Shown piece by piece: positions 1-22,933 of a DNA stretch of 26,727 nt; position 1 is the stretch's first letter, and each line of letters begins with the position of its first letter. The DNA comes from a virus. The notes beneath the pieces are model-generated. The model did not search any database, was not told the origin of the DNA, and saw only the letters and a list, made by a program, of their open reading frames with translations. The position numbers and the translations under genes were made by a program. Location of the stretch: the IMG/VR virus record IMGVR_UViG_3300032182_000273, positions 1 to 26,727 of that record. The stretch is one strand, 5' to 3'.

Positions 1-53
1 TTGGTGTCGATCTCGATCTTGTAGAAGGAGTGCTTGACGACTTGGACGGTCAT
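1..53 (-). CDS. 5' end of an unidentified gene, cut by the window edge
   Basis: An ATG at 53..51 opens a frame that stays open to the window edge and reads MTVQVVKHSFYKIEIDT. A purine-rich AAGGGAA lies about 6 nt upstream and is a plausible ribosome binding site. The gene follows a strong terminator (89..127), so it probably begins a separate transcription unit. Only 17 residues are visible, so no family can be named. Its codons look more GC-rich than those of most genes in the window. Confidence 0.5.
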   Translation of the reverse strand, partial: MTVQVVKHSFYKIEIDT

Positions 54-88
54 GTAGTGTTCCCTTGACGACTTCTATAGAATACACG

Positions 89-127
89 AAAACAGGGCAG
101 TGAACCACAAGAGTGGACACTACCCTG
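89..127 (-). terminator. Rho-independent terminator after the SPFH gene
   Basis: On the minus strand a 10-bp outer stem, CAGGGTAGTG with CACTGCCCTG (one G-T wobble), encloses a second 4-bp stem, CCAC with GTGG, around a TCTT loop. TTTT follows directly. It begins 16 nt after the SPFH stop codon, where a terminator for the minus-strand transcript is expected. Confidence 0.85.
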
Positions 128-143
128 ACTGTCACATGTTAGA

Positions 144-1028
144 TCACTTGCCGATGTTGCCTGTGGGTAGCATCTCAAGTGGTGAACCATTCACAATGAT
201 CATTTTCTCCACATCACCATTAGCAAATGCTTCTTTCATGATCTGATTACGTTGGTATTCAAGGAACTTAGGAGTAATAGATGACTCCAGTGCCTTATTC
301 TCCTCTGCTTTCAAACGTGCTGCTTCAGTTGCTGTTTGTTGATCAAGAAGAATTGCTTCGTTCTTAGTCTTAACAGCAAGCAGTTTAGTTTCATTCCGTA
401 CTTTCTGCTCCTTGTTATCAGACTGAGCAGCAACAACACGGTTGACACTATCAACCAGAGTATCAGGAAGATCTGCTTTCACAGCAACAACACTCTCGAT
501 CTCAATACCTTCATCAAGACCATTCTTACCCAGTTGTGCTTGAAGATTAGTCTTGATCACCTCTTGGATCTTATCAAGACTACTATTCACCTCAAGAGCA
601 GGGAATTCATCAACAGATTGGTTGACAGCAGATGCAATCAGACGACCAATATAGTTGGACATCAGTTGAATCTGACCATTGTTATAACGATCATGATTAC
701 TCATATCGTAGTCAGTATAGAAACGATAGAGAGAACCAGGATTGATGGCATATGTCACCACCACATCCATATCTTTCATGATAGTGTTGTCCTTGGTCTT
801 AGGACGAAGATCATTAGCAGCAACCGTAATCTTACGAGTGTTGAATGTCTTAATTGATCCCAATCCATCAAAGTGGATGCCAGGTTGAATAATACTTTCT
901 TTGACTTTACCATCAAAACTAACGTAAAGTCCATTCTCGCCAGTTTTAAGCGTAGTAAACTGTCCAGCACAGAGGATAGCGACGAGAAGCACACCACCAG
1001 CGCCGATGGCAAGTTTAATAGGGTTCAT
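144..1028 (-). CDS. SPFH/Band 7 (prohibitin-like) membrane protein
   Basis: This 294-residue protein has an N-terminal hydrophobic segment (about residues 5-24), then a Band 7-like region with the typical opening 'GENGLYVSFDGKV' and 'IIQPGIHF', and the stretch 'DMDVVVTYAINP' near residue 90. From about residue 200 it becomes Ala/Glu/Lys-rich and is probably coiled coil (RNETKLLAVKTKNEAILL). SPFH proteins form membrane-bound ring or cage oligomers, and homologues are known in marine T4-like cyanophages. It is probably anchored in the host inner membrane with the body on one face. The start is ATG at 1028 with a weak ribosome site, 9 nt after the upstream stop. It is the last gene before the terminator at 89..127. 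The phage role is unknown; control of a host membrane protease, as prohibitins do with FtsH, is a guess. Confidence 0.88.
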   Translation of the reverse strand: MNPIKLAIGAGGVLLVAILCAGQFTTLKTGENGLYVSFDGKVKESIIQPGIHFDGLGSIKTFNTRKITVAANDLRPKTKDNTIMKDMDVVVTYAINPGSLYRFYTDYDMSNHDRYNNGQIQLMSNYIGRLIASAVNQSVDEFPALEVNSSLDKIQEVIKTNLQAQLGKNGLDEGIEIESVVAVKADLPDTLVDSVNRVVAAQSDNKEQKVRNETKLLAVKTKNEAILLDQQTATEAARLKAEENKALESSITPKFLEYQRNQIMKEAFANGDVEKMIIVNGSPLEMLPTGNIGK

Positions 1029-1037
1029 AATAAAAAA

Positions 1038-1202
1038 TTAGTCGTTGGAAATAGCTGCCCAGATAAATGCTAGGGCAATAATGAGTAGGACAAAAAGTGG
1101 TAGCAGTTTTAGAAAGAATAATGCTACTGTGATTCCCCTGGAGAGGAGAATCAGGAGGATGATGGCAATACCTGCCATAAATCCTAGAGTTCTAGTGATC
1201 AT
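1038..1202 (-). CDS. Small two-helix membrane protein, unknown function
   Basis: I place the start at the ATG at 1202 (MITRTLGFMAGIAI...), giving 54 residues. GGAG lies 5 nt upstream of it, and a longer frame to 1265 would only add sequence overlapping the previous gene. The protein is almost entirely hydrophobic: one segment at about residues 8-22, a short Arg-Gly turn, and a second at about 26-50, ending in the polar AISND. This suggests a hairpin of two membrane helices. It overlaps the preceding gene by 11 nt and sits directly upstream of the SPFH gene, which is also a membrane protein. A shared membrane role is possible but unproven. A holin-like role cannot be excluded by size and topology, though nothing specific supports it. 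Confidence 0.62.
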   Translation of the reverse strand: MITRTLGFMAGIAIILLILLSRGITVALFFLKLLPLFVLLIIALAFIWAAISND

Positions 1203-1386
1203 AGTTCTCCAATACGATCTTCCGAAGATCTTCAATTTGATCTTCCAATCTACAACTGTATACATACAGATTAAAGATAATTTCTTCGGGATCTAGCTTT
1301 CTGCTAGTATTTGGTCCCCAAGTTCCATGTTCTGTACAAAATTCTTTCCAGTTTTCCCGGTAGATTGATGCCTGGTCAGTAATCAT
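1192..1386 (-). CDS. Small hypothetical protein (64 aa)
   Basis: Not recognised. The 64-residue product is soluble and mixed in charge, with an aromatic N-terminal half (YRENWKEF, GTWGPN) and a probably helical C-terminal half (CRLEDQIEDLRKIVLENYDH). It overlaps the previous gene by 11 nt at its start and the next by 11 nt at its stop. That is the packing seen through this small-gene chain, and it is the main support for the gene being real. No strong ribosome site precedes the ATG at 1386, so translation may depend on coupling to the upstream frame. Confidence 0.6.
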   Translation of the reverse strand: MITDQASIYRENWKEFCTEHGTWGPNTSRKLDPEEIIFNLYVYSCRLEDQIEDLRKIVLENYDH

Positions 1387-1555
1387 AATTAAATTTACTA
1401 AGTTGATAACCTTCTTTGATTGCTTGAATAATAATGTTGTCGTAACTATGACTCATCAATGGGATATGACGATGATTAAGGAAGTCCTCACAACTATCAG
1501 ACAATGCTTCCTTATATTCGTGTGTCATTGTTGTGAGGAATGTTCTATCAATCAT
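1376..1555 (-). CDS. Small hypothetical protein (59 aa)
   Basis: Not recognised. The frame is open from 1573, but the ATG at 1555 is preferred: GGAG lies 7 nt before it and it gives only an 8-nt overlap with the upstream gene. The product begins MIDRTFLTTMTHEYKEAL and is soluble, His/Tyr-containing and probably helical. It overlaps the next gene by 11 nt. Support comes from the ribosome site and the packing; no motif was seen. Confidence 0.6.
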   Translation of the reverse strand: MIDRTFLTTMTHEYKEALSDSCEDFLNHRHIPLMSHSYDNIIIQAIKEGYQLSKFNYDY

Positions 1556-1718
1556 GGAAATGCTCCGTATCATCGATGTATGTTAGCAGATGATCATAGA
1601 GTTTTACGTCATCTACAGAATTAATTAATGATGTCTGTTTTGTTAGTCCAAGTGGGCACCCCATCATCATATCAATGAGGAACATTATCTCATTTTGAGT
1701 CAGGGGGACTTCTTTCAT
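1548..1718 (-). CDS. Small hypothetical protein (56 aa)
   Basis: Not recognised. I choose the ATG at 1718 (MKEVPLTQNEIMFLID...) because GGAG sits 6 nt upstream. A longer frame beginning with TTG at 1730 would place that ribosome site inside the gene. The Met-rich N-terminal half (NEIMFLIDMMMGCPLGL) looks amphipathic and the C-terminus is acidic (YIDDTEHFHD). The gene begins 1 nt after the previous stop codon and overlaps the next gene by 8 nt. Confidence 0.6.
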   Translation of the reverse strand: MKEVPLTQNEIMFLIDMMMGCPLGLTKQTSLINSVDDVKLYDHLLTYIDDTEHFHD

Positions 1719-1719
1719 G

Positions 1720-1884
1720 TTAGTCTCCAAATACAGGGTAGAAGTCTACACTATCAGCAACGATCATAGGATCTTGCTTGAGGTTTTTAACAATGTGTGA
1801 CACATCTTCAGGGTTGAACACAGTAATTTGTTGCTGTGCTGTACCTTTCTTCTTCATTTTCAACCATTGGATCTGGTACTTCAT
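1720..1884 (-). CDS. Small basic hypothetical protein (54 aa), found by eye
   Basis: A 54-codon frame fills what would otherwise be an empty gap. It starts with ATG at 1884 and reads MKYQIQWLKMKKKGTAQQQI, then ends ...ADSVDFYPVFGD. The N-terminal third is strongly basic (KMKKKG) and the C-terminal end acidic. It begins 2 nt after the previous stop codon, and the next gene begins 1 nt after its own stop. The conserved packing and lack of any competing minus-strand frame support it. Function unknown. Confidence 0.62.
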   Translation of the reverse strand: MKYQIQWLKMKKKGTAQQQITVFNPEDVSHIVKNLKQDPMIVADSVDFYPVFGD

Positions 1885-1886
1885 GA

Positions 1887-2012
1887 TCAAAACTCGTTCA
1901 GGATGTCAAAGGGTACTTCTTCGTTCATTTCATATTCAGGTGCTTCTTCTGCCTCACGGAGAAGTGCTGCCCGAATCTCAGGGTCATCAAAATAATCAAA
2001 AGTTTCGTTCAT
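1887..2012 (-). CDS. Very small acidic protein (41 aa), found by eye
   Basis: A 41-codon frame from ATG at 2012 to TGA at 1889..1887 reads MNETFDYFDDPEIRAALLRE and continues acidic to ...VPFDILNEF. Its start overlaps the previous stop as ATGA, a classic coupling arrangement. The strongly acidic, probably helical product has no motif I recognise. Small acidic phage proteins are sometimes DNA mimics or host-protein inhibitors, but nothing here shows that. Confidence 0.6.
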   Translation of the reverse strand: MNETFDYFDDPEIRAALLREAEEAPEYEMNEEVPFDILNEF

Positions 2013-2269
2013 TTAGAGTCAAGATAGATAATTTTGTCAAAATCATAGTGATACACTACAACATTTACATTACGAGCAGGGTGTTCGGGGAACTCCCTCA
2101 CACATATTGTAACACACTGGTCACACCGAAAGTTGATGAAACCCCGATCACCCTGATATTCAACCCATTCCCTAGTCTTCGTAGATGAGACACTCTGGGG
2201 CTTCTGGGTTGAGGTCACAGTGGATTTCGAGAGCGGTGGGATCGTGGTGGTCATCAGGGTTGTGCTCAT
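2009..2269 (-). CDS. Small protein with a CxxC cluster; start uncertain
   Basis: The C-terminal part looks genuine: 'FRCDQCVTICVREFPEHPARN' contains a CxxCxxxC cluster (possible metal site), followed by a Val/Tyr-rich strand-like tail. The N-terminal 30 residues (Thr/Ser/Pro-rich) overlap the end of the preceding gene in another frame and may not be translated. The ATG at 2269 has only a weak AGAG upstream, and the GTG at 2218 is the alternative. The gene couples to the next through ATGA at 2012..2009. Function unknown. Confidence 0.5.
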   Translation of the reverse strand: MSTTLMTTTIPPLSKSTVTSTQKPQSVSSTKTREWVEYQGDRGFINFRCDQCVTICVREFPEHPARNVNVVVYHYDFDKIIYLDSK

Positions 2270-2384
2270 GATAAATCTCTAGATCGTGAAGTTCACTCTC
2301 AATGTGACGACGTTGTTGAGGGGAAATTGTGGAATCGTCGAGGATTTTCTTATCCTGTTCGATATGTTGTTCGATACTATCCAT
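2172..2384 (-). CDS. Small acidic His-rich protein (70 aa)
   Basis: Not recognised. The 70-residue product starts MDSIEQHIEQDKKILDD, is probably helical in its first half (QQRRHIESELHDLEIYHEH), and then has a cluster DDHHD and an acidic tail (PEAPECLIYED). The His/Asp cluster could bind a metal, but no family is evident. The start at 2384 lies 23 nt downstream of a CTAAATA box (2408..2414), so this gene may open a late transcript. No good ribosome site is visible. Confidence 0.6.
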   Translation of the reverse strand: MDSIEQHIEQDKKILDDSTISPQQRRHIESELHDLEIYHEHNPDDHHDPTALEIHCDLNPEAPECLIYED

Positions 2385-2407
2385 GGTAGTAAAAACGTTG
2401 TATAAAA

Positions 2408-2414
2408 TATTTAG
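2408..2414 (-). promoter_or_regulatory. Late-promoter-like box CTAAATA overlapping a stop codon
   Basis: The minus strand reads CTAAATA in a 26-nt intergenic gap, 23 nt before the ATG at 2384. Its TAA is the stop codon of the upstream 60-72 aa gene. It resembles the T4 late promoter TATAAATA, where a -10-type box alone directs a gp55-like sigma factor. Function is inferred from the motif and its position. Confidence 0.5.
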
Positions 2415-2593
2415 AGGAACTCGTTCATATAGTAATCAACTGTTACCTCAAACTTTGCTGCTTCTTCCTCCACACATGCCATAAAGAGTTCATCAATGGG
2501 GAAGTCATCACCAATACGCTCACGTGCAACCTCACCTACTTTTCTACGGTAGATAGTCTTGCCGTGGTCAGGAGATTCATAGACGTAGGTCAT
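2411..2593 (-). CDS. Small hypothetical protein (60 aa)
   Basis: Not recognised. I prefer the ATG at 2593, giving MTYVYESPDHGKTIYRRKVG followed by an acidic helical tail (DELFMACVEEEAAKFEV). The frame is open to an ATG at 2629, which would make 72 residues and a 53-nt overlap with the upstream gene. Neither start has a well-spaced ribosome site; an AGGA lies 12 nt before 2593. The pattern ESPD.GKT.YRR gives a protein-like character that argues against a random frame. Confidence 0.6.
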   Translation of the reverse strand: MTYVYESPDHGKTIYRRKVGEVARERIGDDFPIDELFMACVEEEAAKFEVTVDYYMNEFL

Positions 2594-2951
2594 CGGGTGT
2601 TGTGTTCCTGTACTCTGTAAGTGTACCATGCTCCATGTAGAGCGTCAACCTCGGAAAGGGAGACCAGTGAGCGTCCCACTTGTCCGGGTAGATCTCAATC
2701 ATACCATAAAACGGGAACGGGCGAACCTTCCCATGTGTTCCATTTGAGACCCACTTGATACCCTTCAACAATGCTGTATCATTGTCTGGCTCATACTCAA
2801 AGTCTTGTGTACCACTATAATCTATCTCAAACATTTTACCTGCTGGATCAATCCAGTAAGTTGACATTACATTGTGTAGTGATTTAGTTTGGCATACATT
2901 AAATGATGGTCCGAAATCATATGATGATATGATAGTATCAAACATCCCCAT
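2577..2951 (-). CDS. Hypothetical phage protein beginning MGMFD (124 aa)
   Basis: This 124-residue protein starts MGMFDTIISSYDFGPSFN and is rich in aromatic residues and short strand-like segments (MFEIDYSGTQDFEYEP, GMIEIYPDKWDAHWSPFPRL). An MGMFD/MGMYD opening recurs in small proteins of tailed phages, but I cannot assign a function. A strong GGAGG lies 6 nt upstream of the ATG. It overlaps the upstream membrane-protein gene by 14 nt. The gene at 3213..3410 starts with the similar MGMYDEL, but the rest shows no clear relation. Confidence 0.72.
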   Translation of the reverse strand: MGMFDTIISSYDFGPSFNVCQTKSLHNVMSTYWIDPAGKMFEIDYSGTQDFEYEPDNDTALLKGIKWVSNGTHGKVRPFPFYGMIEIYPDKWDAHWSPFPRLTLYMEHGTLTEYRNTTPDDLRL

Positions 2952-3186
2952 TGTTATCCTCCGAGATATTATATTTTTCTCGTATTTTGATTAGTTCTCT
3001 CTGTAGACGCCAGCGATCAAGTTGTAAGCGTGGCCACATAGTTGCCATGAACCACCAGCGTCTGATGTCAACAGAGAGACGTTGAATCTGGAGATCAACC
3101 CATAAACCAACATTAGGATCGATAACAATGAGAGCAAGTAATACTGCTGCTATTGATACCATCGACAAATAATATGTCTCGTTCAT
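2938..3186 (-). CDS. Single-pass membrane protein with a basic tail (82 aa)
   Basis: The 82-residue product has one hydrophobic segment (about residues 6-24, LSMVSIAAVLLALIVID). A Trp- and Arg-rich amphipathic region follows (DIRRWWFMATMWPRLQLDRW) and then a charged tail. The layout suggests a bitopic inner-membrane protein with the basic part in the cytoplasm. GGAG lies 7 nt before the ATG. A TTAAATA box lies 19 nt upstream, so it may start its own late transcript. No family recognised. Confidence 0.7.
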   Translation of the reverse strand: MNETYYLSMVSIAAVLLALIVIDPNVGLWVDLQIQRLSVDIRRWWFMATMWPRLQLDRWRLQRELIKIREKYNISEDNNGDV

Positions 3187-3205
3187 GGTAGATCTCCATT
3201 TCTAC

Positions 3206-3212
3206 TATTTAA
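3206..3212 (-). promoter_or_regulatory. Late-promoter-like box TTAAATA
   Basis: The minus strand reads TTAAATAGTAG in the 26-nt gap upstream of the gene starting at 3186. The same TAAATAGTAG occurs at the box near 14003. Between box and start codon there is room for a leader carrying the GGAG site. It matches the TAAATA core of T4-type late promoters but starts T rather than C. Confidence 0.4.
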
Positions 3213-3410
3213 TCACATACTATCAGATTCTTGTTGATTCTTCAGGAATTTTCGGCATTTCTTAACCTCTTTCATCTCCTCCTTGATTCGTTGATATGTT
3301 TCCTCAGCACTAAGTTTACCTGCCATTTCCATAGCAACATAAACTTCAACCCTTGTACCAAAATGTTTCAATGCTTCTTCGAAGCAATTCAACTCGTCAT
3401 ACATTCCCAT
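3213..3410 (-). CDS. Small helical hypothetical protein (65 aa)
   Basis: Not recognised. The product starts MGMYDELNCFEEALKHFGTR and continues as a Lys/Glu-rich, probably coiled-coil helix (ETYQRIKEEMKEVKKCRKF). Its start codon shares one base with the upstream stop (TAATG), so the two genes are translationally coupled. The MGMYD opening resembles that of the 124-aa protein downstream. Confidence 0.65.
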   Translation of the reverse strand: MGMYDELNCFEEALKHFGTRVEVYVAMEMAGKLSAEETYQRIKEEMKEVKKCRKFLKNQQESDSM

Positions 3411-3553
3411 TACTTACCCACACCATAATCAGGACATTCTTTCTCCAGTCGTCGAATAGTTTCGTGGAGTCGTGCTACTGCTTCAGTAACTTCGGGAGTT
3501 TCTTCCCACTCCCATGTGTCACCAGATTTTACTACATGTTGTCTTGTGGTCAT
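3410..3553 (-). CDS. Small hypothetical protein (47 aa), found by eye
   Basis: A 47-codon frame between the methylase gene and the MGMYD gene reads MTTRQHVVKSGDTWEWEETP and continues as a helical stretch to ...CPDYGVGK. It has one of the best ribosome sites in the window, GGAGG 6 nt before the ATG. Its start overlaps the methylase stop as ATGA and its stop overlaps the next start as TAATG. These three facts make it convincing despite its size. Function unknown. Confidence 0.78.
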   Translation of the reverse strand: MTTRQHVVKSGDTWEWEETPEVTEAVARLHETIRRLEKECPDYGVGK

Positions 3554-4401
3554 AGTATACCTCCAATAAGATATTGATTGAGTGAAGCGTTTGCTAGTTT
3601 AACAGATACATCAGGTTTCATACACACTACAAGTTCTGTTTTCTCATAGCGTTTAGTACCTGACATTTGATAAGGGAAGGTGAGATATTTAAACTCAGTC
3701 CATCCCTCATACAGTTTACGGACAGATTCACTATTGTCATATGACATAACGAATCCACCCTTGTGATCCTTTAACATCTCCGCCAGTGCTTCATGGTCAA
3801 AGGATTTATGTAGTTCACCATCCTTGCCGTAGTAGTGACTCACCGTTTCATAATATGGTGGGTCCAGGTATAAGAAGTTATTTCGGTGAAGCGGGAGCGT
3901 GTCGAAGCATGAACCGTAGCGGAACGACAGGTTAGGATTGTAAAAATTCCTAAGTTTATCAATTCCCACCAATCTGAACTCTGCTCTACTACGAACAGTA
4001 GAACATCCGATCTTACCTGAGTACGAACCCTTGATTGCAATGTAAAATCCTAGTGCTCGGACGAACTTGTCCTCGCTATCTAGCATTGGGAGGAAGGATT
4101 TGTAGTGATCGCTATCAGTTAGTGGGAAATGCTTCTCAGCAGCGTCTGCCAGGCGCTCGCCGCCCTCACTGGTGACGATCTCCCAGAAGTCCGCCAAGGG
4201 TCGAAACACATCATACGCTTGAACCTTGATGCCCTGGGATGCCATCAACATTTCAGTGCTGCCACCACCAAAGAACGGAGACACCACATAACTGGTGCCA
4301 CCGCTCACTTGCCTGATAATATCAATCAGGTCTTTCTTCATTCGATTCTTACCACCAGCATAGCGGTAGAGTGAATGATTTGTTACTTTACGTTTGGCCA
4401 T
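3550..4401 (-). CDS. dam: Dam-type DNA adenine-N6 methyltransferase (D12 class)
   Basis: The 283-residue protein carries the class-alpha methylase signatures in order: RYAGGK (13-18, the first AdoMet-pocket motif of the Dam family), FFGGGS (43-48, motif I) and DPPYY (180-184, the catalytic DPPY). A Dam-like 'FDHEALAEMLKDHKGGFVMSYDN' region follows. It should transfer a methyl group from AdoMet to adenine N6; GATC is the expected target from the family but is not proved. Length is normal for Dam. The start at 4401 overlaps the HNH gene by 19 nt, with a weak GGAA site. Coupling to the HNH and helicase genes may mean self-protection from the nuclease. In other cyanophages an orphan Dam is thought to guard phage DNA or alter expression. 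Confidence 0.92.
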   Translation of the reverse strand: MAKRKVTNHSLYRYAGGKNRMKKDLIDIIRQVSGGTSYVVSPFFGGGSTEMLMASQGIKVQAYDVFRPLADFWEIVTSEGGERLADAAEKHFPLTDSDHYKSFLPMLDSEDKFVRALGFYIAIKGSYSGKIGCSTVRSRAEFRLVGIDKLRNFYNPNLSFRYGSCFDTLPLHRNNFLYLDPPYYETVSHYYGKDGELHKSFDHEALAEMLKDHKGGFVMSYDNSESVRKLYEGWTEFKYLTFPYQMSGTKRYEKTELVVCMKPDVSVKLANASLNQYLIGGIL

Positions 4402-5366
4402 TTGTAAGTGTTCCGGAGGACTTTCTTGGTGAACTTCTGCCTATTATACTTCACCCACTGGTGTTTTGACAACTCAATCGTGTCTGCCAGAATATCTACA
4501 TATGTATCGTTCTGGATCTTACCTTTGAGATACTGAGTACATGCTGCCTTAGCAGTTCTATACATCTGTCCTGCCAGTTCTTTATCACCATGGAGATACT
4601 CTAGAGCAATAGTGTTGAGAACTTCCTTGTAATTGCCTTGACTACCACCAGCACGGACCTCACCATTCTTCAGCAGACGATGAGAACCAAGTGATGACAT
4701 ACCAACAGCACGATGAACATACTCCCACTCTTTTGCTTTAGATGGTGTGAACTCTCTAAGCTCATCTTCTGTCATGTTAAGGATTCTCTCCTTAACAAGG
4801 CGATTAGCACTGTTCTTCAGTTCTTTCTTAGCATACTCTGCTTCAAAATACGCCTTACCTTTAGCAACTTTCTTCTCCCACTTTGCTACCCACTTGGTGA
4901 GATTAGTACGCTTACGATTCATATTAACATTTGACTTAACAAGCAACCAATTATATGGGTCATCACCACCACCAGGAACAACATGCTCAATTTGCATGTC
5001 AAGAATATCACATTCTACATGAGTATAAGCACATTTTCCTCTTTGGCAATGGTACAACTTGTAAATAGCCTTACCACGACCATCTGTAGGATTCTTGGTC
5101 AATCCTTCAAAAGGACAATACCAACCAGTTTGTGATTGCTGACCAGACTTTCTGATCATTGCTTTAGTTGCTGATGGCAGAGCATCGTAGTTCTCACAAA
5201 AAGTACGATAAGTAAGATGCTCTGGAACTGAAGAGTTCCAACCAGGAATTGCCTGTCGAATAATATGAGGATCTTCAGAAGCAATCACAGACTTGTTCTT
5301 AACAAGGTTGGTTGCTTCTTCCCAAGTAAGTTGCTGGTTCACGGTAGGACGGTTGTTAGTTGGCAT
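4383..5366 (-). CDS. HNH endonuclease-like protein with a Cys cluster
   Basis: This 327-residue protein has a recognisable HNH region at about 80-152. Cys84 and the cluster C107, C112 and C119 could form a structural zinc site. The ββα-metal core follows: 'IEHVVPGGGDDPYNWLLVKS' (H128, N139) and then NVNMNRKR with the late Asn residues. The N-terminal 80 residues and the helical, Lys-rich C-terminal 170 residues are unassigned and may bind DNA. The ATG shares one base with the helicase stop (TGATG), indicating coupling. It may be a homing-type, restriction-type or recombination nuclease. Its size and fixed place between helicase and methylase argue mildly against a simple homing element. Confidence 0.8.
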   Translation of the reverse strand: MPTNNRPTVNQQLTWEEATNLVKNKSVIASEDPHIIRQAIPGWNSSVPEHLTYRTFCENYDALPSATKAMIRKSGQQSQTGWYCPFEGLTKNPTDGRGKAIYKLYHCQRGKCAYTHVECDILDMQIEHVVPGGGDDPYNWLLVKSNVNMNRKRTNLTKWVAKWEKKVAKGKAYFEAEYAKKELKNSANRLVKERILNMTEDELREFTPSKAKEWEYVHRAVGMSSLGSHRLLKNGEVRAGGSQGNYKEVLNTIALEYLHGDKELAGQMYRTAKAACTQYLKGKIQNDTYVDILADTIELSKHQWVKYNRQKFTKKVLRNTYKWPNVK

Positions 5367-6616
5367 CAGACAGTAACAGAAACGGCGGGGAGACCTTTGA
5401 CGAAGATAGTGTTGACGAGATTCTGGAGTCGCTTGATCGTAGGAGCACCGTAGTTCTTGAACACGGGCACGATCACCTTACCAGACGGTTTACGGTAGAG
5501 GTGGAACTCACCGGGTTTAATTGTACCACATGCCAGGGCGTCTGCGTCATCCTTGTGGAGACGGATCACACGTCCTACAGTCTGTGCCATCTGGATCACG
5601 TCCAGTTGACGGAGGAAGACAGTGTGAGTAAGACCGTGGACGTTGATACCCTCAGACAGAATGCTGTAGTGGAAGATCACAAACTTACGGTTAGGATCTT
5701 TACCCCAAGCATTGAAAGTCTCGAAGAACTCTTCACGGTTGACTTTGGTCTTGTTCACATAAGCACCATACTTGCTGGTAATATGGAGCACATCGTAACC
5801 TTTCTCGGTAAAGAACTCCATGATCTTAGTCTTAGTCAGCAAGGAGAACATAATCTTGCTAGTAGGAGCAGCGATCAGGATCTTGTTACCATCAGCATCA
5901 ACATCGTTGATCAGGTTGGTGAGTGTGTCGTAGTCAGACTCGTAAGAGAAAGAACCCTTGACACGCTCGATGTCGATCTCGTAGGAGTGAACCTCGGGAG
6001 GGAGAATGTAACCACCAGAAACCAGATCAGGAGCAGCAACGTTACAGATAACGGGACCGAACACCATACGATTGTTCATGCCACGACCGTGAGGAGAGTG
6101 AGTGTGCTTAGGAGTGGCAGTGAAGAAATAGTAGGACTTAGCATCAACTTCAAGCACAGACTCAAAGAAGTTACGTTGGACAGCATTGTGTGCCTCATCG
6201 TAATAGATAGCGTCGATGCTGATGCCAGACTCAACAATACGACGGAGAGAGTTGTAGGTGGTGAAGATCAGTTGGTGAGTGTTAGCAGCAGTACACACAG
6301 CATCGTGACACTTGATAGCATCAACTTTGGTGCTGCTGTTGAAAGAAGTCTCACCACTGTGAACGTGCATCACAGCAGCATCTACAGTGCCGTTGAGAGC
6401 AGACCAGAACTCATCACACAGTTGGTTTGCCAGAAGGATACGTGGAGCAACCACAACGATGGTCTGAGGGGTCTCAGCAGCAATCAGACGACGCTCAACG
6501 TCCTTGATCATCACCAGAGTCTTGCCACCACCGGTAGGTACGATAACCTGACCGTGGGAGCAGGTGGCGAGAGCGTCAAGTGCTGCCTGTTGATGGGGGC
6601 GAAGGGTGATGGTCAA
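5366..6616 (-). CDS. SF2 DEAH-box DNA helicase (UvsW/restriction-subunit-like)
   Basis: The 416-residue protein has the full SF2 set: LRPHQQAALD (5-14), PTGGGKT (27-33, Walker A), APRILLANQL (57-66), DEAH (140-143), TATP (166-169), SEGINV (321-326) and QTVGRVIR (345-352). This fits an ATP-driven DNA translocase of the UvsW / type III restriction R-subunit group. It is shorter than T4 UvsW (about 500 aa) and lacks room for an N-terminal DNA-binding domain. The start is TTG: the frame has no ATG or GTG between an upstream stop and the TTG, and the first internal ATG (Met36) lies beyond Walker A. The ribosome site at 6622..6627 agrees. Likely roles are branch migration, replication-fork rescue or partnership with the downstream nuclease. 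GC content is visibly higher than in its neighbours. Confidence 0.9.
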   Translation of the reverse strand: MTITLRPHQQAALDALATCSHGQVIVPTGGGKTLVMIKDVERRLIAAETPQTIVVVAPRILLANQLCDEFWSALNGTVDAAVMHVHSGETSFNSSTKVDAIKCHDAVCTAANTHQLIFTTYNSLRRIVESGISIDAIYYDEAHNAVQRNFFESVLEVDAKSYYFFTATPKHTHSPHGRGMNNRMVFGPVICNVAAPDLVSGGYILPPEVHSYEIDIERVKGSFSYESDYDTLTNLINDVDADGNKILIAAPTSKIMFSLLTKTKIMEFFTEKGYDVLHITSKYGAYVNKTKVNREEFFETFNAWGKDPNRKFVIFHYSILSEGINVHGLTHTVFLRQLDVIQMAQTVGRVIRLHKDDADALACGTIKPGEFHLYRKPSGKVIVPVFKNYGAPTIKRLQNLVNTIFVKGLPAVSVTV

Positions 6617-6621
6617 GTGTG

Positions 6622-6627
6622 TCTCCT
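6622..6627 (-). promoter_or_regulatory. Ribosome binding site AGGAGA deciding a TTG start
   Basis: AGGAGA on the minus strand ends 5 nt before the TTG at 6616..6614. It is the only good ribosome site here and supports TTG as the helicase start. Confidence 0.7.
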
Positions 6628-6641
6628 GTGCTGATGAATAT

Positions 6642-6670
6642 AGTATACATCAGATCAGGGCACCAGTCTA
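6642..6670 (-). promoter_or_regulatory. Sigma70-like promoter before the helicase operon
   Basis: The minus strand has TAGACT (6670..6665, 4 of 6 with TTGACA), a 17-nt spacer, and TATACT (6647..6642, 5 of 6 with TATAAT). Transcription would start about 18 nt before the TTG codon. An inverted repeat, CTGATG at 6631-6636 with CATCAG at 6648-6653, flanks the -10 box and could be an operator or a small hairpin. No late box is present here, which fits early or middle expression by host polymerase. Confidence 0.45.
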
Positions 6671-6687
6671 GACCATGTGACAGTTTC

Positions 6688-7062
6688 CTAACCGGCTACT
6701 CTATGTGATAGTTTAGTGAGGTTATCATTCGACCAAGATAAACCACCGGAAGCAAATACCCATGCTTGAACAAAGTAATCCGGGTCATCTGTCATATTCA
6801 ATGGTAGATTATCTCTAGCAAACTCTCTTGCTTGTTCTTCTGTGTTAAATGTAAGAAATGTCCACTCATTTGCTAAAAATGTAGGAAATACTTCTGTATT
6901 TTCTTCATCCATATTATTTTTGTATGCTGAATAGATTGTATTAATCTTTTCAGAATCAGTACAAGCATCAGGTCCGACAGTCCTTATCACCATAACACAA
7001 GAATCCATCGCTGTTGTGGTTGACTCGATGTATTGTAAAAATGTTTCTGTTTTAATATCCAT
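6688..7062 (-). CDS. Hypothetical protein after the fibre chaperone (124 aa)
   Basis: Not recognised. Of two adjacent ATGs I prefer 7062 (MDIKTETFLQYIESTTTAMD), because GAGGG lies 6 nt before it. The ATG at 7068, which overlaps the upstream stop as ATGA, has no spacing from that site; using it adds two residues. The product has a mixed helix-strand character, a Phe/Trp-rich middle (FPTFLANEWTFLTFNTEEQA) and a near-C-terminal 'YFVQAWVFASGGLSWSN'. AT-rich codon use matches the upstream gene, not the downstream helicase. Its place suggests a second tail-fibre assembly factor or a small virion protein. Confidence 0.68.
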   Translation of the reverse strand: MDIKTETFLQYIESTTTAMDSCVMVIRTVGPDACTDSEKINTIYSAYKNNMDEENTEVFPTFLANEWTFLTFNTEEQAREFARDNLPLNMTDDPDYFVQAWVFASGGLSWSNDNLTKLSHRVAG

Positions 7063-7064
7063 TA

Positions 7065-8012
7065 TCATCCCTCAGATTGTAAATTTAATGATTCTACGTC
7101 TAAACTTTCCATTAATTTATATCTATTCACCAATGCTACCATTCGTTGATAATCTGGTTTTCCACCAAATCCTTCAGGTATCTCACCATTAATAGCAGAT
7201 TTAACTATATTATTAATATCACTATTAATATCTTCTAGTTTTTGTTCATTAATATCATCCGATATAGATACAGACCAGTGATTATCACCCTCTAGATATG
7301 GTGTTTCGTGTTCTGGATCTAGAATGTTATAACCAATAGGAGATATTGGCCATCTAAAATCAGCATTATATACAAGATAATCTAGATCAGTATCAAACAT
7401 ATCCGGAGATTTGATGATATTTCTCATTGTATCTCTAAACAATAACCAATTATCTTTTTCACCCTCATATTCTTCTACATAATCAGGTAAAACTCGGAAA
7501 TCACATGCTCTAAGTTGTTTATCTCTTGTTGCCAACTTTTCGGTGTGCATTTTATCTAGATAAGGTCTCTTTTTAACAAGTTCTAGCATTTGATCTCTTA
7601 CCTGAACTTCCGAGACTACTTCTTGTGTCCATACTGCTGCTTTAATAGCCTCAAATAGAGTTTGTGCCTGCTCTAAAGATAGATCTTCATAAGTATATTT
7701 TATCCATGTACTTGTTTTTGTAGCAAAACTATACTTTAATTTTTCTTTTTCTAGTCGATAAGATCCATCTTTTCTGATGTAGAAAAGAACGATACGATCA
7801 TTTCTATTTGAAAACTCATCAGGAAGATTTTCCAATAGGTTTGTATTTAACTGTTCCGACAGTTGACATGCTTTATACTTTAATTCATCAATATCAGGAT
7901 TGACAGTTCTAACTAAAATAAACTTTTGAACTGCATCATATTCTATGAGAGTAGGATTTTCCTCAGGTACAGGAATATCAGTAAAAACAAAATCGTCAGG
8001 ATTGAATGTCAT
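7065..8012 (-). CDS. Tail fibre assembly chaperone-like protein (315 aa)
   Basis: Residues around 170-205 read 'TRDKQLRACDFRVLPDYVEE' and shortly after 'NWLLFRDTMRNI'. This follows the pattern R...L..tDw..lpD.......W..yR..lR.i seen at the C-terminus of many phage tail-fibre assembly chaperones (the XkdW/gp38-like group). The protein lies directly downstream of the giant fibre gene, where such chaperones normally sit. It is unusually long: about 170 acidic, helical residues precede the signature and about 110 follow ('FRWPISPIGYNILDPEHETP', then an Asp/Asn/Ile-rich stretch). A CTAAATA box lies 11 nt before the ATG. The family call rests on pattern memory, so it is moderate; an uncharacterised virion protein is the alternative. 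Confidence 0.65.
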   Translation of the reverse strand: MTFNPDDFVFTDIPVPEENPTLIEYDAVQKFILVRTVNPDIDELKYKACQLSEQLNTNLLENLPDEFSNRNDRIVLFYIRKDGSYRLEKEKLKYSFATKTSTWIKYTYEDLSLEQAQTLFEAIKAAVWTQEVVSEVQVRDQMLELVKKRPYLDKMHTEKLATRDKQLRACDFRVLPDYVEEYEGEKDNWLLFRDTMRNIIKSPDMFDTDLDYLVYNADFRWPISPIGYNILDPEHETPYLEGDNHWSVSISDDINEQKLEDINSDINNIVKSAINGEIPEGFGGKPDYQRMVALVNRYKLMESLDVESLNLQSEG

Positions 8013-8023
8013 TGTTTTATTTT

Positions 8024-8030
8024 TATTTAG
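8024..8030 (-). promoter_or_regulatory. Late-promoter-like box CTAAATA before the chaperone-like gene
   Basis: The minus strand reads AACTAAATAAAAATAAAACA directly before the ATG at 8012. The box lies 1 nt past the giant fibre gene's TAA stop, so the two do not overlap. Only 11 nt separate the box from the start codon. With T4-like spacing the transcript would have a leader of about 6 nt. Confidence 0.5.
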
Positions 8031-8031
8031 T

Positions 8032-11000
8032 TTAGTATGCTTTAATCAACCATCTTGTCCAGATGTATGGAGTAATCAAACCAACCTTTTCTTGTGGTGA
8101 GAAAGATGGCGTGGGAATAATTTGCTTATTTTGATCTAAAGTAAATCTACCAGGAAGAACTTCTATTCCTAGATCTCCACTGTTAAATTGTGCTTCAATA
8201 ATAGGAGTGGATGGTACACCAGACTGTACTACTCCACCATCAGAAACATTACCATAACTAAATTTAGTGGGATCTCCCTGAACATTTTCTCTAGTTAAAT
8301 AATGACTATGACTTAATCGATTGACAGGTCTGAATTGATTAATACTAATTTGTCTTTCAGCAGCATCAATAGAAGCAACCCATTTGTGAAGATCTCCAGA
8401 AGAAACACCGCCAGGAGGAGCAGTATCTAGATCAATAAAACTGTTAATCTCATTATAAAAAGGGCTACCAACTTCCAATCCAGTCTGTCTATAGTTTACA
8501 TCAGACCAACTATTGGTAATATGCTCTCCATCACGACCATCACCTTGAACCAGAACAATACCACTACAGAATGATGGTTCCCAATCTTCTGTTGTATTTA
8601 CCCAAGACGAATCACCCGCAGATGTAGTTGTAATAGTATCATCAGCATCAAGTTCGATACCATCGAATACAGCATATCCCCAAAGGTTAATGAATGTATT
8701 ATATTCAGGTTGTTGTGGTAGAGCATCTGTATTATAATTTACTGTTTGAAGATCATTACTCCTTCCGCCATTTCCACCCCATGAAATTCTACCTTTAAAT
8801 CCCTGGTCAATAATACCAGTAACAAGTTCATGAACGTGAGTTGGAATTTCAAACAATCTCTGTTCTTTCAAAGAAATATCTCCTCTAGATTCTCCTGTTG
8901 TGATGAATTCAATAGTAGATTGAACATCAACGTATCCACTAGTTCTAATACTACCAATGTCAAAGAACTGAGAATCAATAGGTTCTTGTCCTGTAGGTGG
9001 TTGTTCTACCTGTGGAATATCCTGAGCTGATGGAGAAGCAATAGTATCAATGAACCACAATCCACCATGAGATCCAGGAACAAATGCTGATCTATTTGCT
9101 GTATTCTTTGCTGGTCCAAAATTAGGAGATAGAATAGCGGAAGACTGTCTGTTTCCATCAACAGGACCAGTACCAACTACTTTCTTATTTCTAAGATCAG
9201 GTAATCGGAATCTAGGTGGAGTTCCAACAAATTGCCCATATGTATATCCAAGAACATCAAATAGAGCAGGATATTCTAATGGATCTAAAGATTGACCATC
9301 ACAGTAAATAAATCCAGGGAATCTAGATACGATTGATCCATCGAGTTCACCAAATCCCGTAACTCCCGGATCTACACTATCTTTAAATACTGGCATCATT
9401 GTACCAATAGGTAATCCATCAAATTTAGTGGCATACTTAGTCTCTTCTATAACTGGTCCAGGAAGTAGATTTCTAAGAATAACATTCAAAGAACTATACC
9501 ACTGTCCAAGAATAGGTTCTTGTGGTGGAGTTTCGAGGAATACAGTAAATGTTCCTTCGCCATCACCAATAAAAACTGTACCTACTCTCTGGAATCCAGG
9601 GAATAATGGAGATAAAAGTCTTGCTCTAATTAAAGTTCCATTAATAACTTGTATAGCACTGCCAACACCAGCATAAGTAGTATAGTTTCCTGTAAAACTA
9701 CCACCAGGAGGAACAACTTCTAGTTCAATACCACTACCTTCATCTGTAAAGAGAGGAACACCACCGGGATTTGTAATACCAGCAAGTACCACAATAGCAG
9801 TGCTCTCTACTAACTGACTAGGAATTGCAGTTGAATCAACACCAAATGTAAAGTTGTCAGGAGTTGTGCCGAAGTTACCAGAGTTTGTAACACTCCAAGG
9901 AACAGGAAGATTAACACCAGCAGTAACTTGGAATACAACTTGTTCACCAGGAATAAGAGATGTAGTGTAATATAATCTAATAACATCAAACTCAGATACT
10001 ACGGCACTACTTACACCTAATTGAACACCATTGACTTCTAAAAATGCCTGTGCTCCAGTTGTAGGATCAGGAGCAATAGAAACAGTAATATCCTCACTAA
10101 TATCCTGAATTACTTGTAAATTACTAAAGACTTCAACAGCAGGATCCTGATTAATTAATGGAACGAATGCTAAAGTATCAGGTTCTAAGTCTGGCTCTGC
10201 TTGTGTTGTAACACTCCACGTAACTAGATTACTACTACCAACAACTACACCAGTGCTAACTGTACTTACAAAGTTTGGAGATGATGTTAATCTTAGTTGT
10301 AATCTTTGTCCGTTTTCGATAGTAGCTGGAGAAGGATCACTAGGATCCGAAGTTCTCCATGCTCCAAAAATATATGTTCCAGGATTACCAGGATCTTCTA
10401 TTCCTACTCGTAGTTCAGCACCATTAGTAGCGGTAACGTCAACTACTTGGTTAATACCACCAATAGTTACTTGATTAGATTCAACCAAAGTATTGATTGG
10501 TTGTAAAAATAGATCTTGGAAACTAAAAGAAGAAGGACTTGTATCTGGAGGATCTCCAGTTGTTACAACCCATACAACTTCAGAACCATCACCAGGAGTT
10601 ACAGTTACAGAATATCCAATGTTATACAAGAATCCAGTATTAATTCTAAGTTGAATGTAATAATTATTTCTTACAGCAGCACCAATACCCCATGGAGTAG
10701 TTAGTAGTGTTGCTATGTCTGGTGCTGTTCTAATAGCAGCACTTTGACCATTTGTAATTACATCAAATGATACAGTTCCTGTAATACCTGTGATTTGAAC
10801 AATTTCAGATTCTACCTCGGTATCTGGATCTACAGGTCCAGCAGGAGTAAAACTAAAAGGATCAGGTATTGTATCTTGAGGAGGCCAGGCAACAATTACA
10901 AGACCATCTTCTCCAGGACCAAATCCATTTTCAGAATTTGTTAAAGGAGATGTAATATTGGTGAATACAGCAGGATCATAATACCATCCACCACCAGTAC

Positions 11001-13971
11001 CACCTGTAGCGTCAAGATCTTCAGACTCGGAAGGAGAAACAATAGATCCAATACGACCACCAAACTCATCAAACTTATCAGTGGTAGTAGTACCGCCAGT
11101 ACCCCATCCACCACCGGCACCTCCACCGCCACCACCTTTAGTGGGGTTGTCTTCTCCATCATCACCTACAGAAATAATAGTACCAATAGGTTCAAGTGCT
11201 CCACCACCTAAGTTTTGGTTTCCATTTTGTGATGGTTCTGGAATTGTGGTATCACCACCGGCACCACCGCCACCACCACCGCCTCCAGCAACTACAAGAG
11301 TTTGAAGAACAGCAGAACTGAAAATATCTCCAACTAGTTGGTTGACACCAGAAGCACCGCCACCTCCTCCTCCACCACCGGAGAATTCATTAACAGCACC
11401 AGACCCGCCATTACCACCTGTAGCAAAACCAACGCCACCAGCTCCTCCAGCAGCACCATTGGCAAAACTATCACCATCTTCTCCTGCTGTGCCAACAATA
11501 ATTTGTACTCTTCTATTATCAGGATCTTCCCAGAATGCAGCAGGGGAAGAAAGAGTTCCAGAGACCCAGTTTCCAGGAGCTCCTCTACCGCCAATACTGT
11601 TTGGTTGATCATCACCACCATCACCACCACCAGCACCATAGACATAGAAATCAACCTCATCTGCCCAGTTAGGTAAGAATAATGTAGTGTCTTGTCCTCC
11701 CGTTTTTATGTCATATGTATATTCATCTTTACGAGTAAGAACAGCAAATTTTTCTGTGACAAATGTAGCACCAAGACCTATTCTGTACGTCATCTCAACA
11801 ACAGTTCCTGGTGGTCCTGCTTCAATACCAACATAAGCAGTACCATTGTTAACAGTAACTGCAGTTTGATACACTACATCATTAGTGGATACTCCAGCAT
11901 TTGAAAATGGAGTAGCACTAACAAGACTCAACGTAGTAGCAGCATCTAATCCTTGAAGATTAATTGGAGAAACAACAAATTCACCAGCATTTTCAACAAC
12001 CTGAAATTCACTTTTAAATCTTTCTGGAACAATTCTAGGATCTCTAGTTGTTAGAGTTATTGTATCTGTAACATACGGAGGAACATTAAATACCGGACCA
12101 AGAGTAGGATTACCTAAAGGACCACCATTTGGAGGACCTTGGAATACGATAGAACTTGTTAAAGTTTGATCATAAGAAGTAGAAGATCTAAATCGTAAAT
12201 TCAATACATCGCCATTTTCTACAAATATAGATGTTGACCAACTACCAGTATCATTTTTTCTTATTTCAGCACCACCCTGATTAACAACAGCAGCAATTCT
12301 TACATCTTCTCCATCGACAGCACTAGTGTCGATAGGTAATGTTGGATTACCATCATCCCCAGCGAGAGGATCTTCTAAATCATTATATGCTCCATCTGGA
12401 TATTCTACACCAAGTCCACTAATAGGAACATCAACATAATATAACCTATCCACTTCGGCATTAGGTAGTGTAGTTGTTGTAGATACTCTTACTTTTCTGT
12501 ATTGATTAAGTATAAAAACAGCATCATTATTACCACCATTAATTCTAATCTGATCTAAATCTTGATATCCAGTTCCTCTTTCGACGATTTCTAAAATAGC
12601 AATGCCGAAAGCAGGATCAGCTTGGAGAGTTCTAATTGTGAGGCCAGTAGCAGATGGGGTGGTAAGATTGGTAGTGGTGTATATCGTGTTATTAGTATAT
12701 CCCGTTCCTTGTTGGTTGATATCAATTTCAACATCATCGGAGAATGTAAAAATAGGACTTAAAGTAATGGGATCAGGATATCTATCTACTTCTGTCCAGA
12801 TTTGTTGATCATCATTTCTAGTTCCTACTATTTGAGTTACTTCGAAGTTTCCATTGCCTTGATTAGCACCATATGTTCCAGCTGGATTATTGTCAAATCC
12901 ACCTGGCAAAGTTTTATTTGGAACGGCAAATATAGTTAAATCACCAGTAGTTTTTGTAGTATAATCTAAACCAATAAGAGTTCTTGCTGTAATAGAATCT
13001 CCTAAAGTTAAATCATTAATAGTTTGTACCCAGTTAACTCCATCGGTAGAGATTTCAATATCACCAGTAGATTCTGCTTCGACAATAGTATCATCATCGA
13101 TACCTGTGATAGGAAATGTTCTTGTCTTATAAGTACCAAAATCAAAATCTCTTTGGTCAATAAAATCAGTAAATACACCATCAAATAATGAAGTTACTTC
13201 CTGAAGTTGTGCTCTTGTAGTAATACTCCAAGTGTCTGATACAGCACCATTAGTGCCAGTCTCATTCCAATATTCATCAGAAATAGTAAGTGTTACGTTT
13301 GTATTAGTGGTATACCAATCTTCTGTAAGAATTCTAAGTCTTACTGTATTTCCTGCCTGTACTGTAAAATAAACATTTCCTGATGTATTTCCACTAGCCG
13401 ATGCTGGTTCAACTACCGTAACATTGTTTCCGGAAATATTAATAATTTCTCCTGTAATGTTAGGAGTATCAACATATCTTCCTACTGCTAATTGACCAAC
13501 ATTTCCGGAAGTAACAGTAAACGTTTTGCTACCGTTAGTTGTACTTGCTGTAATTGCTATAAATTGATCTTGTTCTCTAATATATGGACCATCGTTAATA
13601 CTAAATGCTGCTTCTGCTGAGTTTGGATATACTCCTTTAGGACCACTAGCAGATACAGCAATACGAATAGGAACTCTAAGTTCTATTCCAGAGACTTGAA
13701 TTGCTTGAGAATAATATGTTGTGTTCTTTTCAAATACACCAATAAATGAACCAGATGTGGGATTTGTTCTACCAAATTGATCAGTAAATGAAAAGAAATC
13801 TGGTTGTGCGTCAGGAAGTTTCGTACCTACAGTGACATCATCAGTTCCTTCCCCAATCTGAACCTGAAAAGTAATATTAGTATTCCAAGTATCTGGAGTT
13901 GGATACCTTAATTCAATAAAATCACCAGGATTAACAATAACCCCAGTAGAGCCTGCTGGAAGAAATGGCAT
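8032..13971 (-). CDS. Giant tail fibre/adhesin: Ig-like repeats, Gly-rich, collar domain
   Basis: At 1979 residues this is the largest protein in the window. Residues 1-760 and about 1035-1500 consist of repeated Ig-like units of roughly 90-110 residues, many ending in W-s-V/I-T-T (such as TWSITTRA, VWVVTTGDP, TWSVTTQAE). Between them, about 770-1034, is a glycine-rich domain with long Gly runs. At about 1520-1600 is a phage tail collar domain: PIGTMMPVFKD, then GFIYCDGQSLDPLEYPALFD, then FRLPDLRNKKVVG. The C-terminal part has two HxH motifs (THVHEL near 1711, SHSHYL near 1887), like the metal-binding sites in T4 gp12 and gp37 trimers, and ends PYIWTRWLIKAY. It is probably a distal, host-recognising fibre. 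A chaperone-like gene follows it. The ATG at 13971 lies 31 nt after a CTAAATA box. Confidence 0.88.
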   Translation of the reverse strand: MPFLPAGSTGVIVNPGDFIELRYPTPDTWNTNITFQVQIGEGTDDVTVGTKLPDAQPDFFSFTDQFGRTNPTSGSFIGVFEKNTTYYSQAIQVSGIELRVPIRIAVSASGPKGVYPNSAEAAFSINDGPYIREQDQFIAITASTTNGSKTFTVTSGNVGQLAVGRYVDTPNITGEIINISGNNVTVVEPASASGNTSGNVYFTVQAGNTVRLRILTEDWYTTNTNVTLTISDEYWNETGTNGAVSDTWSITTRAQLQEVTSLFDGVFTDFIDQRDFDFGTYKTRTFPITGIDDDTIVEAESTGDIEISTDGVNWVQTINDLTLGDSITARTLIGLDYTTKTTGDLTIFAVPNKTLPGGFDNNPAGTYGANQGNGNFEVTQIVGTRNDDQQIWTEVDRYPDPITLSPIFTFSDDVEIDINQQGTGYTNNTIYTTTNLTTPSATGLTIRTLQADPAFGIAILEIVERGTGYQDLDQIRINGGNNDAVFILNQYRKVRVSTTTTLPNAEVDRLYYVDVPISGLGVEYPDGAYNDLEDPLAGDDGNPTLPIDTSAVDGEDVRIAAVVNQGGAEIRKNDTGSWSTSIFVENGDVLNLRFRSSTSYDQTLTSSIVFQGPPNGGPLGNPTLGPVFNVPPYVTDTITLTTRDPRIVPERFKSEFQVVENAGEFVVSPINLQGLDAATTLSLVSATPFSNAGVSTNDVVYQTAVTVNNGTAYVGIEAGPPGTVVEMTYRIGLGATFVTEKFAVLTRKDEYTYDIKTGGQDTTLFLPNWADEVDFYVYGAGGGDGGDDQPNSIGGRGAPGNWVSGTLSSPAAFWEDPDNRRVQIIVGTAGEDGDSFANGAAGGAGGVGFATGGNGGSGAVNEFSGGGGGGGGASGVNQLVGDIFSSAVLQTLVVAGGGGGGGGAGGDTTIPEPSQNGNQNLGGGALEPIGTIISVGDDGEDNPTKGGGGGGAGGGWGTGGTTTTDKFDEFGGRIGSIVSPSESEDLDATGGTGGGWYYDPAVFTNITSPLTNSENGFGPGEDGLVIVAWPPQDTIPDPFSFTPAGPVDPDTEVESEIVQITGITGTVSFDVITNGQSAAIRTAPDIATLLTTPWGIGAAVRNNYYIQLRINTGFLYNIGYSVTVTPGDGSEVVWVVTTGDPPDTSPSSFSFQDLFLQPINTLVESNQVTIGGINQVVDVTATNGAELRVGIEDPGNPGTYIFGAWRTSDPSDPSPATIENGQRLQLRLTSSPNFVSTVSTGVVVGSSNLVTWSVTTQAEPDLEPDTLAFVPLINQDPAVEVFSNLQVIQDISEDITVSIAPDPTTGAQAFLEVNGVQLGVSSAVVSEFDVIRLYYTTSLIPGEQVVFQVTAGVNLPVPWSVTNSGNFGTTPDNFTFGVDSTAIPSQLVESTAIVVLAGITNPGGVPLFTDEGSGIELEVVPPGGSFTGNYTTYAGVGSAIQVINGTLIRARLLSPLFPGFQRVGTVFIGDGEGTFTVFLETPPQEPILGQWYSSLNVILRNLLPGPVIEETKYATKFDGLPIGTMMPVFKDSVDPGVTGFGELDGSIVSRFPGFIYCDGQSLDPLEYPALFDVLGYTYGQFVGTPPRFRLPDLRNKKVVGTGPVDGNRQSSAILSPNFGPAKNTANRSAFVPGSHGGLWFIDTIASPSAQDIPQVEQPPTGQEPIDSQFFDIGSIRTSGYVDVQSTIEFITTGESRGDISLKEQRLFEIPTHVHELVTGIIDQGFKGRISWGGNGGRSNDLQTVNYNTDALPQQPEYNTFINLWGYAVFDGIELDADDTITTTSAGDSSWVNTTEDWEPSFCSGIVLVQGDGRDGEHITNSWSDVNYRQTGLEVGSPFYNEINSFIDLDTAPPGGVSSGDLHKWVASIDAAERQISINQFRPVNRLSHSHYLTRENVQGDPTKFSYGNVSDGGVVQSGVPSTPIIEAQFNSGDLGIEVLPGRFTLDQNKQIIPTPSFSPQEKVGLITPYIWTRWLIKAY

Positions 13972-14002
13972 GTTGCTACGAAAATTCCATTACTAGTCCT
14001 AC

Positions 14003-14009
14003 TATTTAG
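14003..14009 (-). promoter_or_regulatory. Late-promoter-like box CTAAATA before the giant fibre gene
   Basis: The minus strand reads GCCTAAATAGTAG. TAA within the box is the stop codon of the 65-aa gene upstream. The giant fibre ATG is 31 nt further on. The flanking TAAATAGTAG also occurs at 3206. Confidence 0.5.
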
Positions 14010-14433: not shown

Positions 14434-14443
14434 GGTTTTTAGA

Positions 14444-18679: not shown

Positions 18680-18683
18680 TTTT

Positions 18684-20339: not shown

Positions 20340-20341
20340 TT

Positions 20342-22932: not shown

Positions 22933-22933
22933 A

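Follow-up and report, generated by a model that had tools for sequence, protein, structure and literature searches.

Gene layout at the locus

The window analysed here is the whole 26.7-kb stretch (26,727 nucleotides, nt) of the uncultured virus contig IMGVR_UViG_3300032182_000273, which comes from a T4-like cyanophage and carries its main genes all on the minus strand. The gene order runs from tail fibre genes and a tail assembly chaperone through a superfamily 2 (SF2) helicase, an HNH protein and a DNA methylase to small genes and a Band-7 protein. Our subject is the HNH–methylase pair within this series, which we interpret as a probable phage-borne restriction–modification system directed at the word YGCR (TGCA, CGCG, CGCA and TGCG). 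A sequence-only reading of the window had proposed three overlapping genes for a helicase, an HNH nuclease and an adenine methylase of the Dam type, sharing a promoter of their own and acting together in a restriction-like manner. The gene structure it described is confirmed at 3550-6616 on the minus strand, with overlaps of 1 nt and 19 nt (Table 1).

Table 1. Coordinates of the cassette and associated features in the window
Feature	Position	Strand	Remarks
SF2 helicase	5366..6616	-	416 aa; TTG start preceded by AGGAGA; T4-GC_36, a core gene of cyanophages; lies upstream of the pair
HNH nuclease	4383..5366	-	327 aa; predicted restriction endonuclease for YGCR
D12-fold DNA methyltransferase	3550..4401	-	283 aa; predicted cognate modification enzyme
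HNH/methylase reading-frame overlap	4383..4401	-	19 nt in window; 14-28 nt in relatives
Helicase stop / HNH start overlap	5366..5366	-	1 nt (TGATG); -1, -4 or +2 nt in relatives
Sigma70-type promoter of helicase	6642..6670	-	TAGACT, 17 nt, TATACT
Small gene phrog_765	3213..3410	-	Marks the insertion's downstream edge; directly follows helicase in L022
YGCR depletion	1..26727	.	Whole window: 26 sites vs 176 expected

Linkage and spread of the pair

Scanning viral contigs with the conserved methylase returned 42 loci and reached HNH relatives that a single-sequence HNH scan had not found. Besides the window, 39 uncultured contigs carry the HNH gene beside a helicase or methylase gene; L066, L070 and L071 begin within the methylase and hence stand outside this count, while the end-cut contigs L033, L045 and L105 fit the same gene plan. 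One order of helicase, HNH and methylase holds throughout the loci compared, with the helicase and HNH genes spaced by -1, -4 or +2 nt. A scan of viral contigs with an HNH family profile returned only this cassette place, and the pair was not found in cultured phages. HNH and methylase are never separate where both would be visible, except in the remote L067/L068 branch, which has a methylase about 53% identical, some 200 nt between helicase and methylase, and no HNH gene. Such linkage and co-inheritance of nuclease and methylase genes is what characterizes Type II systems. An empty site is seen in L022, where the helicase is followed by a gene 74% identical to the one that follows the methylase in the window.

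The helicase retains intact PTGGGKT, DEAH, TATP and QTVGRVIR motifs and matches the Pfam families ResIII (the best match), DEAD and Helicase_C. Among T4-like cyanophages it belongs to the ordinary core genes, mostly without the pair in relatives, and it was matched over at least 80% of its length in 419 of 50,697 phage records, nearly all cyanophages. In five cultured relatives neither a nuclease nor a methylase gene directly follows the helicase, the place being taken by small unknown genes or an oxygenase, and the preceding genes encode tail-fibre, oxygenase or small unknown proteins. On a tree of 94 helicase sequences, three changes on supported branches account for the distribution of the pair. 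The dedicated helicase or translocase inherited with the methylase that would mark a Type I or III system is not found, the pair having joined about three helicase lineages. Between the window and the L041 and L034 lineages the methylases share 73-76% identity and the helicases 56-58%; because the methylases are more alike than the helicases, transfer of the pair probably postdates the divergence of the helicases. Whether the three genes stay together across cyanophages was the check proposed for the original three-gene unit: the nuclease and methylase do, and most relatives carry the helicase without them.

A terminator hairpin and a sigma70-type promoter lie upstream of the helicase in many relatives. 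A motif scan by itself gives no support (18 promoter sites vs 13.1 expected); it is the conservation of position that argues for a real promoter. Since a similar promoter also precedes the helicase in phages without the HNH and methylase genes, it belongs to the helicase, and the shared promoter claimed for the three genes exists but is not their own. The helicase is thus probably a neighbour that supplies the promoter, rather than part of the system. In several relatives the promoter's -35 box lies within the terminator hairpin of the upstream gene (window 6642-6700; L034, L040, L134, L002), so that terminator and promoter overlap.

Within the cassette, the nuclease diverges far more than its flanks. 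The window and L008 share 92.5% identity in the helicase and 98.6% in the methylase, but only 45% in the HNH protein, with identity borders sharp at the gene ends and a background of 71-78% over most of the rest. L040 and L053 show the same pattern (helicase 90.5%, HNH 23%, methylase 95.7%). These identities indicate that the nuclease allele itself is exchanged between phages within conserved flanks.

The methyltransferase

The methylase motifs FFGGGS and DPPY are intact and conserved, as S-adenosylmethionine-binding and catalytic motifs are in a Type II methyltransferase, and the Pfam D12 family is matched above its cut-off (E 1e-16). Against the curated dam model TIGR00571 the protein scores 50 bits, far below the cut-off of 114.85. 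Profile searches place PDB entry 7m6b (E 1.4e-27) well ahead of DpnM (E 6e-5), and 7m6b also ranks first for the predicted methylase structure, at about 21-23% identity in the structure match. This entry is M.CbeI. It belongs to the alpha class of N4-cytosine methylases, has a DPPY motif, was once annotated as an adenine enzyme and is known to methylate the inner C of GGCC (PMC3425538, PMC8616854). GATC is not avoided in pair-bearing contigs, although this does not decide adenine methylation in GATC. The designation of the window enzyme as an adenine Dam methylase is therefore probably mistaken, and judged by its kinship N4-cytosine is at least as likely a product as N6-adenine.

The usual cyanophage 'dam' is about 30% identical to the window methylase; in S-RIM32, Sf-FP1 and others some 90 kb separates it from the helicase. 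The P-SSM7 dam (L006:3977-4804) matches M.CbeI at E 2e-47 and T4 Dam at E 1e-5. A core 'dam' that is far closer to M.CbeI than to T4 Dam implies that the common annotation may be wrong, and it serves as a warning that cyanophage 'dam' annotations may denote N4-cytosine enzymes.

The HNH nuclease

Residues C112, H128, D135, P137, N139 and N148 of the HNH protein are invariant in 20 relatives, consistent with the intact active site of a putative Type II nuclease. No Pfam family matches the protein, even at E 5. Its weak matches are confined to Cas9 and PtuB models, its family profile aligns weakly to Cas9 HNH domains, and sequence searches of the PDB returned only weak Cas9-like matches. Membership in the PtuB/retron HNH defence class is not supported (TIGR02646 at 16.5 bits vs the 52.15 needed), and no PtuA-like neighbour was found among the window genes scanned. 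In 84,980 genomes no cellular relatives of either the HNH protein or the methylase were detected, by profile scans that used short patterns and can miss distant ones. The nuclease appears to define a new family, so far found only in this cassette, with distant relatives in a few named cyanophages.

These distant relatives lie within larger proteins, some of which are labelled virion structural: L005:4139-7089 (S-TIM5), L117:1418-7750 (ACG-2014f), L115:139-6689 (RN05-S) and L114:4119-6197 (S-CRM01). Three of the four adjoin or stand near DNA methylase genes.

Genome-wide depletion of YGCR

Four-letter words were counted against a maximal-order Markov expectation. Relative to cultured phages, the most depleted words in pair-bearing contigs are CGCG, TGCA and the complementary words CGCA and TGCG (0.09-0.11 each), which together make up YGCR. 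Across 36 pair-bearing contigs the observed/expected ratio of YGCR is 0.00-0.26 (median 0.10; pooled 275/2545); the 67 contigs that have the helicase but not the pair range from 0.43 to 0.95, none being strongly depleted. Of the four-letter degenerate palindromes tested, the best at telling the two groups apart is YGCR, with an area under the curve of 1.000. The deficit extends over the whole of the 190-kb contig G002, which holds 94 sites vs 1106 expected and is low in each 20-kb block, and six end-cut contigs give 0.05-0.24. The window's main genes contain 24 sites vs 111.8 (standard deviation 6.6) after synonymous codon shuffling.

Avoidance goes with the pair in all three contrasts on the helicase tree. 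The nearest contrast is that of L134 with pair-bearing L041: their helicases are 90% identical, and the ratio is 0.67 in L134, which lacks the pair, vs 0.08 in L041. In five metagenomes that yielded both kinds of contig, the ratio is 0.05-0.20 with the pair and 0.54-0.76 without it. When 22 contigs classed as pair-lacking were searched over their full length with profiles, none yielded an HNH relative. L067/L068, with a related methylase and no nuclease, show no avoidance (0.73-0.82). In the L039:4156-5016 nuclease, about 45 residues of the C-terminal half are missing in frame, and YGCR is avoided nonetheless (15/85).

The form of the loss is informative. In pair-bearing contigs YGCY/RGCR is raised, GC dinucleotides stay at 33 per kb, and YGTR/YACR is not enriched (12.1 per kb vs 9.9-12.4). 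Because lost sites became YGCY/RGCR with the GC dinucleotide kept and YGTR not raised, selection acted against the palindrome, and C-to-T decay is rejected as the cause.

A probable Type II-like restriction–modification pair and its alternatives

We consider it about two-to-one likely that the phage encodes, in the HNH protein and the methyltransferase, a Type II-like restriction–modification pair of predicted specificity YGCR, which would cut host or rival DNA. The pair would have entered the genome downstream of the core helicase and would draw on its promoter; the helicase itself would be a neighbour whose function predates the pair. The methylase would mark phage DNA, probably by N4-methylation of the cytosine in the GC core (the mode of M.CbeI at GGCC), and the nuclease would cut YGCR sites lacking the mark, in the DNA of the host or of competing phages. 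With the nuclease present in every infection, the phage genome would have lost most of its own sites. The two enzymes may share a site: YGCR loss follows the pair, and the methylase family acts on a GC-core site; kinship to M.CbeI fits YGCR because of this GC core, and CGCG holds no adenine. Coliphages with protective modification avoid few host sites, and site avoidance is reported for orthodox Type II enzymes and hardly for Type I or III (PMC6286503). Strong avoidance beside a methylase therefore points to a constant internal Type II-like cutter and not to a host enzyme met sometimes. Of the restriction-like system first proposed for this locus, what survives is a pair that is always together and tracks genome-wide YGCR loss; the helicase is no dedicated translocase and the methylase probably no adenine Dam. 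The fuller picture, which we regard as evenly balanced between true and false, is that of a lytic tailed phage with a complete restriction–modification weapon, a new HNH family, a new YGCR specificity and a genome reshaped against its own nuclease, in which phages exchange nuclease alleles without change of methylase or specificity.

Several points weigh against this interpretation. A Foldseek search of the HNH model against the PDB gave no match, to a solved restriction enzyme or otherwise, and the HNH protein varies far more than the methylase does, an uncommon situation for matched enzymes. Nor would a classic pair be obliged to lose its own sites if its methylase were efficient. The phylogenetic contrasts number only three, so that a sign test cannot fall below p 0.25. 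Because close methylase relatives always carry the nuclease, the effects of the two proteins are separable, and avoidance assignable to the nuclease alone, only via the distant L067/L068. The main rival is a host-side YGCR restriction system that would have selected both avoidance and the pair. Under this counter-defence explanation, hosts carry a YGCR enzyme, the phages avoid its site and bring a methylase, and the HNH protein does other work such as general DNA breakdown or the exclusion of other phages. Phage site avoidance usually reflects host restriction enzymes (PMC6286503), and other palindromes avoided in cyanophages (RGCY and CCGG among them) do not track a D12 methylase. We nevertheless think it unlikely: pair-lacking phages should need avoidance most, yet 0 of 67 strongly avoid YGCR, contigs from the same samples included; a protective methylase should relax avoidance (PMC6286503); and L067/L068, with a methylase and without the nuclease, show none.

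The tight gene overlaps at the loci compared, the ResIII match of the helicase, and helicase and methylase blocks that are mostly >90% alike between the window and L008 against the 71-78% background would all suit a three-part machine, in which the helicase would translocate DNA as a subunit of a Type I or III-like complex formed with the other two proteins. A helicase that is core in the 419 phage records without the pair, with about three lineages having gained it, makes such a complex improbable, as do methylases more alike between lineages than helicases and an avoidance typical of Type II rather than Type I or III enzymes (PMC6286503). More improbable still is a homing-type HNH nuclease standing free between two conserved genes, next to an unrelated orphan methylase. 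HNH genes are common mobile nucleases in phages, and the allele exchanged between conserved flanks in window/L008 and L040/L053 would fit one. A free-standing homing endonuclease should occupy varied insertion sites independent of its neighbours, but this family was found only between helicase and methylase, overlaps both neighbours in a fixed manner, showed no close relatives elsewhere in viral contigs or in the 84,980 genomes (a pattern-limited scan), and its presence accompanies genome-wide YGCR loss. Mutagenesis of methylated cytosines, by which the methylase alone would deplete YGCR, is very improbable; depletion does occur wherever a methylase of at least 75% identity is found, but the unenriched YGTR/YACR, the retained GC dinucleotides and the rise of YGCY/RGCR instead are not what it predicts.

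Comparison with known systems

To our knowledge, complete viral restriction–modification pairs are known from algal and amoebal giant viruses, and lytic phages carry mostly lone methylases. No enzyme of YGCR specificity is known to us, and a text search of the literature, REBASE not included, gave no relevant match. The pair and the purged YGCR suggest a restriction system belonging to the virus itself, with a cut site revealed by the missing word. If so, uncultured cyanophages of this group come equipped for restriction, YGCR offers a precise target for simple bench tests, and the specificity of a phage nuclease could more generally be read from the word missing in genomes carrying that nuclease.

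Chlorovirus systems provide one precedent: they consist of adjacent nuclease and methylase genes with very short sites, and are believed to degrade host DNA in the first phase of infection (PMC7019647). Pairs such as CviJI resemble the present one in being virus-encoded, in adjoining genes and in short sites, that of CviJI being RGCY with a GC core (PMC7019647). They belong to eukaryotic algal viruses, whereas the present pair resides in a tailed cyanophage, with an HNH protein unmatched to known enzymes, an M.CbeI-like D12 methylase, the word YGCR and its own sites purged. CbeI/M.CbeI of Caldicellulosiruptor bescii (PMC3425538, PDB 7M6B) includes the nearest solved methylase relative and also recognizes a GC-core palindrome, GGCC; it is bacterial and thermophilic, and GGCC avoidance in the phages studied here does not follow the pair. 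The Marseillevirus GATC system, a second precedent, is likewise a virus-borne pair, but of a giant virus of amoebae, with another site and other enzymes; a role in coinfection interactions has been suggested for it, and host DNA is not degraded (PMC7253447).

Two comparisons lie closer to hand. The cyanophage core 'dam' (T4-GC_161, e.g. that of P-SSM7) is also a D12 enzyme nearest to M.CbeI, but it adjoins gp44/gp62, and P-SSM7 has no HNH partner for it. The clearest HNH relative in a named phage is the S-TIM5 'virion structural protein' AEZ65730 (24% identity, fold E 6e-10), which adjoins a cytosine-5 methylase gene. It differs from the window protein in its larger size, an extra N-terminal region, the other methylase type and a divergent gene order.

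Other words and minor observations

Several other words were considered as cassette-specific sites and rejected. The contigs show no avoidance of GATC, and they avoid GGCC/RGCY whether or not they carry the cassette. TGCA by itself does not distinguish the groups, as some pair-lacking contigs avoid TGCA (L022) but not the whole YGCR set. No separate site stood out for the divergent L053 nuclease allele in comparison with L040. A link between RGCY avoidance and the ordinary cyanophage D12 methylase was also rejected, as G024 (171 kb) and G025 (155 kb) avoid RGCY and show no D12.

RGCY, the CviJI site, stands at 0.0-0.3 in many cyanophages and at 0.94-0.95 in L152 and L158 (loci L124-L196, cultured L001-L007). 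In contig G023 it is wholly missing from 17 kb around the helicase (L155; 0/84) and about halved elsewhere (L227-L230; 306/633), a contrast that may reflect a chimera or regional history. CCGG is not avoided in the window, L008 or L015, though nearly all other contigs with the pair, and most cultured phages examined, lack it. The L008/L032 contig (G042, 37.7 kb), whose closest relative in the cassette is the window, contains 34 AATT vs 418 expected on both strands, against 266 vs 398 in the window; this loss may be another restriction-like signal. Lastly, the window encodes at 14447-20339 three adjoining glycine-rich virion proteins, apparently repeated tail genes, whose C-terminal regions are alike and include SPNAYPNPDIDT-like and MRQIGTP-like stretches.

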